Shown piece after piece: positions 40,691 through 48,717 of a stretch of 64,000 nucleotides of DNA; the stretch's first letter is position 1, and each line of letters starts with the position of its first letter. Below the pieces are notes generated by a model. The model saw only the letters and a program-made list of their open reading frames with translations, was not told the origin of the DNA and did no database searches. The translations under genes and the position numbers were made by a program. This DNA is from Sialis fuliginosa (Eukaryota; Arthropoda; Insecta; Megaloptera; Sialidae), in contig OY540819.1 of NCBI GenBank assembly GCA_961205875.1, positions 9,302,501 to 9,366,500 of the forward strand, written 5' to 3'.

Positions 40691-41408
40691 TTATGATAAC
40701 ACACTAAATTTTATAAAATCACTAGATATTAAAATCTGAAATTCTTTATTCGGTAAACAAATATAAAAAATAAAAAATATTATACATATTTTGGTAAAAA
40801 TATTCTTCACAAAATTTTAATGCTCCTTTCACAATTACATCTGAAAACAATATTTTAAAACATTAAATTAACATAACATAACAACGTCTATCTTTCTATT
40901 TTGTATCATTCAAATAAACTGGACTGAACGTTTAATCGGCGACAAATCAGTTTGCAACTCGAACCTGATCAAATTATCGGCCGACAAAAAGTCAAATTTG
41001 CGAAAATTTATTTGAAAATATACCTAAACGTTTCTTAACAATATTATTTCACACACGTAATAATGTTTTTATTTTTTTACCAATTTGGTCTACTTACTTT
41101 ACTACTAAACTTACTAAAATCAGTAAAAAAAAACTATCAACAAGAAATATGCTATCCCGAGTCTTGGAAAGTTAAATTAGTTTATAATTTTCCACAACAA
41201 ACTTGATAAAGCTGTGATAAGCAAACACCTATAATAACTCATTTAACTTGATGAAACTGCAAACCTCTCATATATCTGGAAGAGTTGATTTACGGCCTCA
41301 GGTTGATTATATTTTTTATTCATTTAATAATTTTCACTACAATTGATCTGGTCGAAGTTTTTTTCATGCACTCAAATTTTAATCACTTACGAAAAACAAA
41401 AATCCCCG
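40691..41408. other. 3' flank of the carbonic anhydrase-related gene
   Basis: TTTATT at about 41315-41320 reads AATAAA on the minus strand, 90 bp past the stop codon at 41409: a likely poly(A) signal. No other gene is seen. Confidence 0.5.
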
Positions 41409-41634
41409 CTAATCGTAGAAGAACAGTTCCCTGTTGTTCGCGTTCTGGACGGGCCGCGAGTTCACCAAGAGTGTGCCGTTGGGTGCAATCATCTTGCGGA
41501 ACTTCCTGACCTGTCGTCTGGAGACGCTGAGTGGCTCCGACTGGACCAACCACGTGACCCCTTCGCGGCACGGCGGGTACGTCAGCGACCCGTTGTACGT
41601 GAAGTAGTTGCTCTCAAACGACGGCGCTAAAAGA
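41409..41634 (-). CDS. Exon 4 (terminal) of the carbonic anhydrase-related gene
   Basis: Acceptor TTGTCCACAG. It encodes LLAPSFESNYFTYNGSLTYP, then PCREGVTWLV and SRRQVRKFRKM, typical of the C-terminal third of alpha-CAs, up to RELFFYD and TAG at 41409. Confidence 0.92.
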
Positions 41635-44600
41635 CTGTGGACAACATAACAATAATTAACTCTAGGGTTTCTCAAATTTGACATAATTATAAAATATTTA
41701 TCAAATATGTGGTAGGCAAGTATGTTAGTAGGTGCATATCCATTGATTCAAATTCAATCGCCTCTTTCTTATGACACTGAAGCTAGCGGTCGGAGCTACC
41801 GGCCAGACCTCAGAAGTCACTATATATAGAATTAAGCGGTTAAAACAATTGTGAAAATCATTACTCCGAATTTTTTAGAATTTTTTTTGTCTTGGTAAAA
41901 TTAATTTTCACGTGATTTACAATTAATTTAACAATGTCAGATATCAGGACTAAGAATTTTCCGACTTTTTAAATCAATTTAAACATCAAATTTGACATAT
42001 TTGACAATTAAATGGACTATTACAGGTGGTAGCATTTTTTGGGAATTTTTATTTCTTTTATATGTTATTACAATTGTAAATACCTACAAATAATGATTTT
42101 TACAATTGTTTTAACAGCTTAATTCTAGATAGTGACTACTGAGGTCTGTCATTCTTTTCTTACATAATATTGTAATTAAATATAATTCGTGTACAATAAA
42201 TTTTTTAGTTTTATAGATTAAAACGCGTTATCTCAAAATCACGTTTGAAAACCCCATGATTTGTAAAATACTAATTAACTATTTTTTTAGAGGTGTCACA
42301 ATACATTGAAAACGCATATAAAATACATTTTTAACAATGTAGGCAAAATGTTTAATACATATGGAGAAATATTGGTTACGTGTGTATTTTATAATAAACC
42401 CACGTAACTTTACTGCGCGGTTTTGATTTGTACGTGTGCATTATTGAGCTTTAGGCTCGGTATATTGCATCATTAAACCACAAACGGTCGTTAAAACAAA
42501 GGTGGCTATTATTGTAAAGGAATTTATATCGCAAAGCGTAAAGTAAACATTCTTGCTGAATTTGGCTATAAAATCTAGAAAGGTTAAAACCAATTTAAAA
42601 TTACAGTACAACCTCCCTTAAATTATACTCCATAAACGCAGAGACCTCACTTAACTCTTTAGATCCGGTGTGCCGATATATCGGCATGACACTTTATGCT
42701 AATGAAGTGCGGCATGCCGATAAATAGGCGCCGGGAAATAAAAAACGTCTCGCGTTATCTACCGGTACGAAACTTGTTCACGACATTCGAAACACGTGTC
42801 TCTGTATTGGACATTTGAAATATTGGCAGTTACTAGATTTACTCGAATACTGAACCCAGTGTTACCCGGGTTAATATCCACAAATTATACACTTAAACCT
42901 ATTAGTAAAAACCGGAATAAAATCCGTTCAGACTTTGTTTTATACAAGATACACAATATTCATTTAATTGCGATGGTAAGTACAATTGATATTGGTTACC
43001 CGAATAACATATTTTAACACACAGGCGATCCCCTCTTACCGCCCGCTCCTCAAAGACTGTAGCCAACATCTGTAACGTTTATATTTTAAACATATCGTTT
43101 ACAAACCTGAGAGCAAAAGGTGTAAGCAGACGCTCGGTGCCCGGACACCGAACATAGCGGAGCCCGGTGATGATTGGTTCCAAGAACGGATTATCTATTG
43201 GCGTTATCGAGAACAGGTACGAGACCACCAACAGCCCGTACGGGGCATTCTTCCTGAGTACCTCCTCGATACCGCTAGAACCTATCTGGCAGAATGTAAG
43301 CTGCATCTCCAATGGATATCTGTAATAAAAATAATTATTTTGTTTAAAGTACAAATATAGAAAATTTTACTGTAAAATACTATAAAATTAAAAATTTTAT
43401 ATTTATGCATAGTCAATTAATTTAACGTGAATATCTTCTAGGGTTACAGGCCAGATACTGGGTGTAACGCATTGAGATCAGTTTTGTGCACTAGCGTAAA
43501 TCTAAAATCAGTATATTGTTTTGGTCCCAAATTATAGATATCGATTAAATCTACGAGGTATAAGTAAAAACCAAAACATTTACCAGTTTTAATGAGTGAT
43601 AAATTTAATATTATAAAAAAACAACAAAAAATTAATTTTTGTATGTCCACGATTGCGCTTATAATTATTAATTAATTGATTAGAATATATTCTCTATGAT
43701 CTAACGTTTTTAATTTTTTGATTAAAGTTTTTTAAATTAAATAAAAAATAAAAAGTAAATTTCGTATTTCCGCGATTTCGCTTGTAAATATTAATTAATT
43801 AAATGTTTTTATGTTCGTACAAATCATAAATAAATAAATAATTTCATTATACAATACTAGTTATAAATTTCTTTATTTAGTTTAAGTTTACGACAGCAAT
43901 TTATGTCCATTTTACAAATTTTCAAACGTTTTCTGTGTAACAAAAAAATATTAATCCATGAGTTTGAGTTTTATTTAACCCCACTTCCACGTATTCACAT
44001 CAATCCCTCGACTGTGCATCCCGCTTAACCGATATTGCAAACCTACTACGAAACAGAGAATAATCATAGCGTGTATAGGTTAATAAATTAATAAAGACTT
44101 TTCAATATGGTAATATTTTTAGAAAATGCAATTCGAATGTTTATAAATAAATTCCTAATTGATTAAAAAATCAAATAAACACAGATAAAACCAAAAACAA
44201 TAATTTATATTTTGTTTTTCTTTCGAATTTCTATACGAATATATATAATTACTTGTAAAAAAACACTTCAGGATATTTTTCTACACATATGTGCGTATTT
44301 TATTTTATTACAAATTTTCAAAGTAAAATACTTTTCATTGGTGAAAAAGAATGTCAAATGTATCTTTTGTAAAGGAAATAATTTATATAGAAATTGTTTC
44401 TTTTGATGCAATATGAAAAATATGCCCTTTCTATTTAAGCAAGATATATGAGTGCATTAATGTTTTGTCAGATATAAAATATAAACGGGCTAGAAGTGGC
44501 AGTTTTTTTATTCAAATGTACATAACGTGAATTTATCGATGTGAAAAGAAAAAAAACACTTTATGAACTTTTTACACAAAAAATTGGTGTACCTATTTCT

Positions 44601-47600
44601 TTTTTTGTTTCCTAAGTTTATTAATACTAATATATACTATTTTTTAACTAATCGCTTAGACCAGTCAAATTAGATCGATTTTTGTCCTTAAATGGAAAAA
44701 AATAGAATATATTAAACACATCAATTTCGATAGGTAGTATGGTTCTTTATAACAGAAAAAGGTTTACATATTATGTGAATCTAATAAGTAATATGCATTA
44801 TTGAAAACATAAATTTGAGTGGTTTTTCCTCTCTTCTTTATTATCTTAAAAACTACTCGATTACAATTATATTTCTATAAAAAAATGACAAGTGTACTTT
44901 TTTGTATTCTATGTTCTTCATCGAATCGATAAAAATTCGCTTACATTTTTTTTTATGAAAATGTGAACTTTTTATTGATAATTTATTCTGGCGAAATAAA
45001 CAATTTTCATCTAAATAATGAATGGTTGATATTAATTATAATTAAGCCTAAACATAACACTGTGCCACAATGGGTTCTCGAAAAAATCAATGAAAGGTAA
45101 TTTTCGACATATTTTTTGTTTTATATTTAAAGTTTTTTACATTCGTTATAAATCACCCTGTATAAATATAAGAGAAATAACAATTTAAAAAAAGCAACAA
45201 GACATCGATCTTATTTCACCAAACCGATTATCTAAATTAAATAAAACTATGTACACCTAAGTCTCACCTCGTGAAATCTATCGTGTGTTCGGATCCCTCC
45301 TCATCGTTCGCTCCCCACCGGAAATGGATGAGATGTAGCTCATAGATAGTGTTGAGCGGTCCCCCGCACACAGACGGGCGATTATGCTGCCCCCACTGCG
45401 TCACCAGCTCCACCGTGTGGCCGTTGTTACATATGAACAGACAGTCTGGTGCACTGTGGTATGCATCCGTCCACAACTAGACAAATAATAATTATACATA
45501 TGCATATACAATACAATGATATAATTGTAGTGACGTTAAATATAAATAAAAACAAACTTGTTTGTCTAAACGTCAAAGGACCCCGCAGTTTTTGATAGGG
45601 AAATGGCTTTCAGTCAATCTCTTTGAAACCAACTGGAAAATATTCTCTAAATCATCCCGATTAAAAGTCTCAATGGTCGCAACCGCCTAAGTTCCCGAGG
45701 TCTCGCGCAAAAAGCTGTTTTGTACCTAATAATGCAATAAAAAAATCGATATAGTACAGGACATTTTGAACAAAGAAATTAAGTTTTATGTATCGGTTTG
45801 TTTATTTAATTTCTAGATTTTTATGTTGTTAAAGTTTGCAAGTTCTAGCAAATTGTTTTATGGATTATAATAAAGTTTTTATAAAACATGTTAAGGTATG
45901 TGTAGTGCCGTCAGCGCCAGCTACTAGCGATAGTATTAAAAATATTAAATTGTAAAATAAAAACAATAGAAAATTAGTTGTCATAAAAATATAACTTTGA
46001 TTTGTAACACACTTATGGGACACCTTATATAAATGTAACTATTTTAAAAATATGCTGCTTGTCTAGCCTGACAACTTTTGTATTTAAAGTTTTCTTCTAT
46101 TTGTTATAATAAATTAAATATTGAACTTGGGAAATCCTGTACTATATCGATTTTTTTATTGCAGTATTAGGTACAAAACAACTCTTTGCGCGAGACCTCG
46201 AGAACTTAGGCAGTTGCGACCATTGAGACTTTTAATCGGGATGATTTAGATAATATTTTCCAGTTAGTTTCAAAGAGATTGACTGAAAGCCATTTCCCTA
46301 TCAAAAACTGCGGGGTCCTTTATTCAAGAAAAGGTAATCGCAAGCGTTCGATTCACAGAATCATCGTCAGGCTATTAATAAAGATTTAAATGTGAGAACG
46401 ATGTTGTTATCTCAATAATATTTATGTGACTGTGAATTATATGAGTTTTCTTGCAAACAACAAGAAGAATAATAATATAATAGTAGTGAAGTTAAATATA
46501 AATAAAAACAAACTTGTTTGTCTAAACGTTAATATTATTGAGATAACAACATCGTTCTCACATTTAAATCTTTATGATGATTCTGTGAATCGAAAGCATG
46601 CGATTACCTTTTCTTAAATAAATTTTGACGTTTAGACAAACAAGTTTGTTTTTATTACATATACAATACATATAGTCAATTTGATCGGTTAAATAATTTG
46701 TACTATACTGTGCGTTCATGATGAAAGGAACAATTTCATTTAAAGTTAAAATAATTATTTTGTGGAAAAACGCTCGGATACGTCGATTAGTATTTTTAAT
46801 TGCGGATATATTGATTTTTTTTAATGAAACACCCCCTATATATTATGCAATTTTTGAATTGTACGGTAAATTCTGAACACTTCTTGTATACATACCATAT
46901 CTCTGATTTTTCAGCGGTTTTCGGAATAATGACGTTTAAAAATTTATATTTTGAAATACACACAAGTAATTAAATAAAATATTTAAATTGAACAAATTTA
47001 CCTTGAACATTTTTTTAAAAGCCAACAAAAACAAGTATGGAAAATTTTGTCTTCAACAAAACGCTCTACTTCGAATTAATCGATTTTCATTCCTTGGCCC
47101 CTAGACCATTTTGATGTGGTATTTTGTGGCAATAAAAACCAAACTATCTGTATTCCAAAAACCGCTGATTTTAGAGCTGGTATGTTGTACAGAAAGTGTT
47201 TAAAATTTATCGTACAATTCAAAAATGGCATAATATACAGAATGTTCCATTTAAAAAAATCAATGATGCATATGTTCTTATTGAGACATCCTGTATACAA
47301 TTTTCTTATGTCAAAAAATCCACAACTAAAAATACTAATCGACGTGTCCAAACGTTTTTCCACAAAATAATTACCTGAATTTTAAACGAATTTGTTCCTT
47401 TCATCATATAGTTATAATGATAATTTATTTTTATAATTGCTTGGGTATTTTATGATATTTTAAAAAATCACGTATTATCGGGTACTAAATCAATATCGTG
47501 GAAAAAGTGTCGACAAAAAATGATTTTTCATAATATCTTCTTCCAGTCAAACGTACGACCAAAATAGTTATTATGAATATTATAGAATTGATTATTCCCA

Positions 47601-48127
47601 AGAATGTTTGTCCCAAACATTGTTTTATAGGTTCAATAGTGGACCTTAAGCTCTTGTGGCAAAGCTGTTTTTAAATTAAACATGTACATTTTTCAGTTGA
47701 TTTTGTCACTTTAAATATTGACAGTTGTACCTCTATACTTCACTTTTTCCTTAAACGCTTTTAGATAATACGTTAATGATATAAAATGCGTCAAGTTATT
47801 AATAAGTATTTATATTTTATCAACTACCTAACTACTTACTAATGGTTCTCCCATACCGATGACAACAGCATTTTTAGAAATAATATTTATAGGTGATTGC
47901 AAATTCCCTTTGCTTTCAGGAAACAACTTGTTCCACACATGGGGACCATCCTGTTCTTCATAGCCATAGTTCAAAGGCAATACACTCCATGATAACAAGT
48001 TACATACACGATTTACACAATTGAATTCTAATTCGGAAAGTTCCAGTACTAACACATAAAATAAAATTATTATTGCACCGTAAAATGCAATTTCGGATAG
48101 TTCCAAATAAGAAAATAAATTTGACAT
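41409..48127 (-). CDS. Carbonic anhydrase-related protein (zinc site lost), four exons, 311 aa
   Basis: Exons in transcription order: 48127-47840, 45476-45268, 43319-43107, 41634-41409. Splice junctions keep one frame through all four. The alpha-carbonic anhydrase fold is clear: GYEEQDGPHVW (about 56-66), LQSPINI, NNGHTVEL (His116 = His64 of CA II), YELHLIHFRWG, EGSEHTI, and YNGSLTYPPCREGVTW near the C terminus. The zinc ligands are altered: His94 is kept (His147), His96 is Arg149 and His119 is Gln172 in YPLEMQLTF. Glu106 and Thr199 equivalents remain; Thr200 is Tyr. Family knowledge says loss of a ligand abolishes CO2 hydration, so I infer a binding or scaffold role like CARP VIII/X/XI. Residues about 15-32 are strongly hydrophobic (signal anchor or signal peptide), suggesting a membrane or secreted protein. 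The length fits the family. It is divergent from the aspartic protease at 48718. Confidence 0.88.
41635..43106. other. Intron 3 with palindromic GC motifs at ~42660-42740
   Basis: TGCCGATATATCGGCA (42671-42686) is a perfect 16-bp palindrome, followed by GCGGCATGCCG and TAGGCGCCGGG. A TTAA stands just to the left (42651). This could be a piggyBac-type relic, but no partner terminus was found. A short fragment of the 2.5-kb tandem unit (AAACCGGAATAAAATCCG) lies near 42908. Confidence 0.4.
43107..43319 (-). CDS. Exon 3 of the carbonic anhydrase-related gene
   Basis: Acceptor TATTACAG, donor GTTTGT, phase 2 at both ends. The joined sequence continues HTIDFTR with YPLEMQLTFCQIG, placing Gln where the third zinc histidine should be. 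It continues through YGLLVVSYLFSITPIDNP. Confidence 0.88.
43440..44040 (+). repeat. Dispersed repeat family B, copy in intron 2 of the CA-related gene
   Basis: The same order as 13376-14215: GCATTGAGATCAGTTTTG, CCCAAATTATAGATATCGAT, TTTTAATGAGTGATAAATTT, then about two array units (TTTCGTATTTCCGCGATTTC) and a right end with CAATCCCTCGACTGTGCATC. The ORF at 43444-43650 (minus) is within it and not a gene. Confidence 0.7.
44041..45267. other. Intron 2 remainder
   Basis: AT-rich. CGTTATAAATCACCCTGTA near 45145-45165 is a lone end of a TACAGGGTG-type element. No exon. Confidence 0.5.
45268..45476 (-). CDS. Exon 2 of the carbonic anhydrase-related gene
   Basis: It is read from the TTG codon of Leu97 after acceptor GTCTAG. 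It carries LWTDAYH, NNGHTVEL, SVCGGPLNTIYELHLIHF and RWGANDEEGSEHTIDFT. It ends at donor GTGAGA, phase 2. The Arg in HFRWG replaces the second zinc histidine. Confidence 0.9.
45545..46656. mobile_element. Complex nested fold-back element in intron 1 of the CA-related gene
   Basis: 33-bp outer TIRs (AATAAAAACAAACTTGTTTG plus TCTAAACGTCAAA) lie at 45545 and 46624-46656. Inside, arm A (about 45578-45775, with GACCCCGCAGTTTTTGATAG in complement) is mirrored by A' (about 46136-46321). A second pair B/B' (AGAACGATGTTGTTATCTCA and its complement) flanks 46425-46530. A third TIR copy sits at about 46497. The whole reads as nested hairpins with no transposase ORF. Confidence 0.85.
46718..47407. mobile_element. 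Fold-back element with ~220-bp arms in intron 1 of the CA-related gene
   Basis: ATGATGAAAGGAACAA at the left is mirrored by TTGTTCCTTTCATCAT at the right. Pairing continues inward (TTTTGTGGAAAAACG, GATACGTCGATTAGTATTTT, AATTGTACGGTAAATTCTGA). The two overlapping ORFs at 47076-47370 on opposite strands are palindrome by-products. Confidence 0.82.
47840..48127 (-). CDS. Exon 1 of the carbonic anhydrase-related gene
   Basis: It starts at ATG 48127 and ends at donor GTAAGT in frame 0 (GMGEPL). 96 residues: a hydrophobic N-terminal segment, two short look-alike peptides (LELSEIAF and LELSELEF) from a small internal duplication, then the start of the enzyme fold. An earlier non-coding exon is possible. 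Confidence 0.82.
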
Positions 48128-48717
48128 TTTTATTAATTTATATTTATTAACACTATTTTAAAATTTTATTTTGTAAACTAACATGTAAGAAATAAACTTC
48201 ATAATTTGACATTTTGGTCCAGGCATTTGTTTCTGTAGATATCTATGATTGAAAAAATTAACTGTCATCTATTCTGGGAATCAGTTTTTAGTTTGTTTTT
48301 TTAATTTTCACATTTTATCTGGAATTGGTTTCTAATCTTTGTCTTACATACTTCAATGATATATGTATATAGTTAACGTTCTTTTTACTAACCACATAAA
48401 AAATGTCCCAACATACAATACATTACATAACCCAATAAATAATTTATTTTTCGTGATTTGTACCTAATCTATATTAAAAGTTAATACATATATTATACCT
48501 ATAATGTACAAATGTTTATTAATTACTTTATTACACAATTAACTCAATTGACGTGCCAATCTTTTTTGTACTAATATCTCTATTTTAATGTCGTTAGGTA
48601 CTCTTATCTAAATGATTTAAAAATCAATTTGCCTTCAGTTAATAACTTTATAATATTAACATATCTACTATTAAAAGGAACTACATACTGTATTGTCAGT
48701 CAAATTGTTTCAAAAAA
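48128..48717. promoter_or_regulatory. 590-bp divergent intergenic region between the CA-related gene and the aspartic protease
   Basis: It separates ATG 48127 (minus) from ATG 48718 (plus) and must hold both 5' leaders unless further upstream exons exist. No clear TATA pair was found. About 48575-48717 is duplicated at 53693-53835 with the protease first exon, which suggests this part belongs to the protease promoter. Confidence 0.55.

Follow-up and report, generated by a model that had tools for sequence, protein, structure and literature searches.

The window analysed here, a 64,000-nucleotide stretch (C11:9302501-9366500) of the 392-Mb Sialis fuliginosa genome (20 contigs), carries on its minus strand an alpha-carbonic anhydrase (CA) gene which runs from 48127 to 41409. 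The gene model consists of four exons and three introns, all with GT-AG borders, and the exons, joined as 48127-47840, 45476-45268, 43319-43107 and 41634-41409, encode 311 residues in a frame that stays open up to its terminal TAG. Its features are listed below in window positions, pocket residues being numbered as in human CA2 on the basis of MAFFT alignments.

47840 to 48127, minus strand: exon 1, with the putative start codon ATG at 48127, reading NYGYEEQDGPHVW...QSPINI, with donor GTAAGT; it holds an N-terminal hydrophobic stretch (residues about 10-31), after which the CA fold begins
45477 to 47839, minus strand: intron 1, with fold-back repeats inside; a CA exon was not found there
45268 to 45476, minus strand: exon 2, with NNGH (His64), GGPL, HFRWG (His at 94, Arg at 96) and GSEHT (Glu106); acceptor TCTAG, donor GTGAGA
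45326 to 45324, minus strand: codon CAT, His94
45318 to 45320, minus strand: codon CGG, Arg96, at a zinc-ligand position
43107 to 43319, minus strand: exon 3, from YPLEMQLTF (Glu117 kept, Gln at 119) through LLTPFAL; acceptor TTACAG, weak donor GTTTGT
43301 to 43303, minus strand: codon CAG, Gln119, at a zinc-ligand position
41409 to 41634, minus strand: exon 4, from GSLTYPPCREGVTW (Thr199 kept, Thr200 replaced by Tyr) through the TAG stop; acceptor CCACAG
41411 to 41409, minus strand: stop codon TAG, with which the gene model ends right behind the CA fold

The initial annotation had placed the gene at 43107 to 45476, a range which takes in exons 2 and 3 but not the whole gene, and had counted four junctions where the model has three introns. 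The peptides it had quoted, YELHLIHFRWG and YPLEMQLTF, are indeed encoded there on the minus strand, and the product length it gave, 311 residues, agrees with the four joined exons.

Compared with Pfam, the 311-residue product matched PF00194 (Carb_anhydrase) with an E-value of 1.3e-60 and 205.6 bits (cut-off 27) over positions 2-251 of the 254 of the profile. The only other family listed for it, Zn_ribbon_RRN7 (E 0.056), was under its own cut-off, and the NCBIfam models, a prokaryotic library, gave no match at E up to 1. Among PDB sequences, the best match was human CA7 (E 1.7e-42). The product of the locus is an intact alpha-CA domain, full length by sequence. It falls outside the active alpha-CAs, which have His94, His96 and His119, in that it carries His, Arg and Gln at these positions, and it is a CA-related protein (CARP) in the broad sense of a domain missing at least one zinc histidine, being devoid of two.

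The codons CAT, CGG and CAG bear out the claim of the initial annotation that His94 is kept while His96 is replaced by Arg and His119 by Gln, and alignment to human CA2 upholds its further claim that Glu106, Thr199 and the His64 equivalent remain. Glu117 and Trp209 are retained as well, and Gln92, Val121 and Thr200 are changed to Leu, Thr and Tyr, respectively. From 11 histidine-complete CAs (7 human and 4 local, the activity of the latter being presumed) we defined 24 invariant columns, of which the window protein keeps 18 and has lost Q92, H96, H119, V121, A134 and T200, a count that is descriptive only and carries no p-value; five of the six lost positions (92, 96, 119, 121, 200) we take to line the pocket. 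With a smaller set of six histidine-complete CAs, 23 of 31 invariant columns are kept. Since CGG lies two bases from either His codon, Arg96 is not explicable by one miscalled base; the CAG codon of Gln119 is a single base away from His. The initial annotation had allowed for an alternative exon with His at the third ligand position; an exon restoring His, at 96 or 119, was not found in the 64-kb window. An HMM built from a 12-row alignment including the window row, and run on stop-to-stop peptides of at least 15 residues from both strands, recovered the four known exons and three further hits (E 1.2, 6.6 and 7.1), with no His-restoring exon among them, and a scan for E-x-H and H-x-H patterns on the minus strand from 41000 to 48500 likewise gave no exon restoring His.

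Across the genome, PF00194 yielded at least 24 exon-level matches, from which nine alpha-CA genes were assembled. All three histidines and Thr199 are present in L010, L011, L012 and L018; L009 and L013 have the three zinc histidines, with Thr199 replaced by Met and Gln, respectively; CARPa and CARPb carry His, His, Gln and Tyr, His, Gln at positions 94, 96 and 119. The report of two CA10-like genes in insect genomes, given in an excerpt of PMC4539348, fits CARPa and CARPb. A genome search with the window protein returned 18 matches, namely its own four exons and 14 at other CA loci; as all of them lie in known CA loci, a second copy was not found in the 392-Mb genome. Other families scanned in this genome were PF02949, the insect-specific odorant receptors, with 42 matches, PF00494 with one, and PF02011 and PF03260 with none, the last two giving no match in the control genomes either.

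Several of these genes have peculiarities of their own. L009 (G000:C5:28325709-28326380, minus strand) is a single long open frame of 970 codons with a lysine-rich tail of at least 400 residues containing RRTSKEME repeats, and looks like a retrogene carrying a new tail. L013 (G000:C9:18803004-18805679) also has His64 replaced by Asn. CARPa, which comprises L014 to L017 (G000:C5, about 1.4546-1.5077 Mb), has His119 to Gln as its sole ligand change and, by analogy with the active Plasmodium enzyme PfCA, for which this ligand set is reported, may not be wholly zinc-free.

Judging from its coding sequence, we read the window locus as a maintained gene. When 931 of the 936 coding bases were shuffled 1000 times, no shuffled sequence was free of stops (mean 15.6 stops), and the frame is open over 311 codons although the best paralogue match, L011 (also the top BLAST match of the protein), is just 36% identical. 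That the gene was recently silenced, or is an artefact of assembly, we regard as extremely unlikely: this reading can point to one weak donor and to an AT-rich exon 1 (GC3 0.29) beside GC-rich exons 2-4 (GC3 0.71), but it has to contend with the long open frame at such low identity, with an Arg codon two changes from His and with GT-AG at every splice border. The surrounding region has about 30% GC, and approximate GC3 values are 0.54 and 0.51 for the two CARPs and 0.32-0.44 for the other six local CA genes. The hydrophobic stretch encoded by exon 1 reaches a 19-residue mean of 2.29 and could represent a signal peptide or membrane anchor, or else T-rich sequence preceding an acceptor that went unrecognised. 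In the alignment, the window protein has Ser at the position of Cys23, which we take to be the cysteine of the extracellular-CA disulphide, despite retaining the Cys of PPC, and this speaks against an ordinary secreted CA.

The ligand pattern was then set against those of six inactive domains, hCA8, hCA10, CARPa, CARPb, PTPRG and PTPRZ, the hCA10 letters being those which we take to be its sequence. His96 is kept in all six, while His94 is replaced in five (CARPa keeps it); Gln119 occurs in five of the six, hCA8 retaining His, so that the change at 119 in the window gene is a common one, while its change at 96 is found in none. Position 94 is thus the usual site of loss in these domains, with 96 kept, and the window gene reverses this. 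Glu106 and Thr199 are retained in all six references too. Inactive-looking alpha-CAs are known and common; it is the ligand pattern seen here that is absent from the six references compared, and the excerpts of open-licence literature on insect or inactive CAs contain no description of a His94/Arg96/Gln119 pattern that we recognised.

The statement of the initial annotation that vertebrate CARP VIII has Arg at 94 was confirmed on PDB chain 2w2j_A. CA8 (2w2j) and the window gene share the CA fold, an Arg in the zinc site and the conserved Glu106, Glu117, Thr199 and His64, and Gln92, Val121 and Thr200 are changed in both. However, the Arg of CA8 is at 94 and not 96 and its His119 is kept, and the window gene shows neither the Arg94, His96 and His119 combination of CA8 nor a CA8 grouping; CA8 kinship was rejected in AU tests with 13 rows (p 0.022) and with 20 rows (p 0.029). 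A CA8 orthologue had been considered on account of the stretches NFKAFPMELHL/DFTRYPLEMQL and PPC.EGVTW, and was opposed by the trees and the AU tests. According to an excerpt of PMC2873310, searches in protostomes yielded no orthologue of CARP VIII.

A descent from a diverged CA10-like CARP lineage or from a PTPRG/Z domain, in which Gln119 would have been inherited, Arg96 acquired later and His94 kept as in CARPa, is in our opinion unlikely. Gln119 is indeed found in hCA10, CARPa, CARPb, PTPRG and PTPRZ, and hCA10 and both CARPs, like the window gene, have also lost Gln92, Val121 and Thr200. These CA10/CA11-like CARPs differ from the window gene in having His96 and Glu92 (vs Arg96 and Leu92), and position 94 is Arg in hCA10, Tyr in CARPb and His in CARPa, the last as in the window gene. 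The two local CARPs have in addition an intron after Glu117, where the window gene has one before Tyr114. PTPRG and PTPRZ likewise have Gln119 (EMQI vs EMQL) and keep Glu106, Glu117 and Thr199; PLEMQ is identical in PTPRZ, and LDPII.GL also prompted the comparison. They differ in that His96 is kept, with Glu or Thr at 94, and Lys stands at 92; moreover, YPLEM is spelled in L009 as well. The CA-like domains of PTPRG/Z sit in receptor phosphatases with FN3, membrane and phosphatase domains, whereas the window gene model ends after the CA fold, at the stop codon 41411-41409.

The alignment and tree check proposed by the initial annotation, run with local and reference CAs, grouped the window gene with L009 and L013, with supports of 83/82, 91/81 and 90/83 in three trees, the last computed after removing 12 active-site columns. 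This grouping had moderate, unstarred support, and the branch leading to the window gene is long (1.41); the L009-L013 sister pair itself was supported at 100/98. Both members of this sister group keep three histidines and both are devoid of Thr199. hCA10 and the local CARPs formed a separate clade (100/100) outside which the window gene fell, and the window gene did not group with PTPRG and PTPRZ either. In AU tests, CA10 kinship gave p 0.064 (13 rows) and 0.076 (20 rows), and PTPRG/Z kinship p 0.072 (20 rows); both kinships are disfavoured, at values above 0.05 which leave the descent from such lineages some room. The BLAST bits point away from it, as L011, hCA7, hCA2, L009 and L013 all scored above the six inactive references, although with a shorter L013 model L013 and hCA8 tied at 115 bits.

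The intron between exons 2 and 3 (before Tyr114; profile position 105, phase 2) is common to the window gene, L010, L011 and L018, L012 being the one histidine-complete local gene without it, and is missing from the CARPs; L011 (G000:C1:46.33 Mb), which shares it, differs from the window gene by its three complete histidines. CARPa, CARPb and L012 have an intron at profile position 109, phase 0 (after Glu117 in the CARPs). The argument from introns is a partial one: L012 is histidine-complete and nonetheless has the CARP-type intron, the CA part of L009 is intronless, L013 is devoid of an intron at profile position 105, and the remaining two introns of the window gene have no match in any other local model. 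Overall, the proposal of the initial annotation that this is an independently derived inactive CA is favoured by the AU rejection of CA8, the placement outside the CA10 clade and the exon 2/3 intron, and these comparisons make it most likely that the gene arose among the alpha-CAs of insects, apart from both CA8 and the CA10-like CARPs.

With regard to activity, excerpts of PMC5437132 describe Toxoplasma TgCA_RP, with Phe at the first ligand position and Gln at the third, and Plasmodium PfCA, which has Gln at the third position and yet is active; because of PfCA, Gln119 alone is no proof of inactivity. The weight of the case for inactivity therefore rests on Arg96. A weak or altered metalloenzyme, in which His94, Gln119 and another group would hold a metal, is very unlikely in our view, arginine being a poor metal ligand and Thr200, Val121 and Gln92 being altered too. 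Precedents are provided by PfCA itself and by human CA2 with Asn94, which is reported to keep reduced activity (excerpts of PMC5437132, the latter citing Lesburg 1997), but both proteins retain His96, where the window protein has Arg.

The account which we prefer, and hold to be reasonably probable, is that we are dealing with an intact insect gene, for which a second copy was not found, encoding an independently derived alpha-CA pseudoenzyme, i.e. a non-catalytic protein with a CA fold. With two of the three zinc holders replaced, the protein probably has a job other than CO2 hydration. The side chain of Arg96 would fill the metal cavity and exclude Zn2+, and without Zn2+ the hydration of CO2 would be lost, as Arg96 and general knowledge of CA2 lead us to expect. 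The preserved fold could then act by binding, in analogy to CA10 and to the CA-like domains of PTPRG/Z and, provided that the hydrophobic stretch at the N terminus is genuine, the protein would go into the secretory route. The PTPRG/Z CA-like domains bind contactins. CA10 is reported to bind neurexin (excerpt of PMC8024894).

The main functional rival to such a binding role is repurposed catalysis, in which a pocket made of His64, Glu106, Thr199, Arg96 and Tyr200 would carry out another reaction without zinc. There is an analogy in plant alkaloid synthesis, where PtCAL-1 and PtCAL-2, with two and all three of the histidines mutated, respectively, are enzymes (excerpt of PMC10700139), and Thr199, Glu106 and His64 are retained in the window protein; yet Glu106 and Thr199 are kept equally by all six inactive references and nothing in the window gene points to a substrate or pathway, so that we consider this reading improbable.

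Within the preferred account of a pseudoenzyme, we suggest only tentatively, and with more doubt than conviction, that the gene represents a third kind of inactive CA in this insect lineage, descended from neither CA8 nor CA10/11, in which Arg96 would replace the zinc and adapt the pocket to some new ligand or partner, and that its sisters, devoid of Thr199, would make up with it an insect clade leaving catalysis by different routes. A gene that keeps His94 and loses His96, next to ordinary CARPs in the same genome, would indicate that zinc has been lost from the CA fold more frequently, and along more paths, than one would gather from the named families; it would also offer a natural experiment on the residues that the fold requires beyond catalysis. 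The case consists so far of one gene in one genome.

Beside the CA gene, an aspartic protease gene occupies the plus strand of the window from 48718 to about 52776, its last exon being placed by eye; its joined exon peptides match PF00026 (E 1.9e-32). Its likely ATG lies 590 bases from that of the CA gene, in the opposite direction, and the two genes possibly share a promoter region. The fold-back repeats of intron 1 have arms at 45575-45761/46135-46321 and 46718-46814/47311-47407, of up to 187 nt and 96% complementary, and these elements (45575-47407) are probably miniature transposons.
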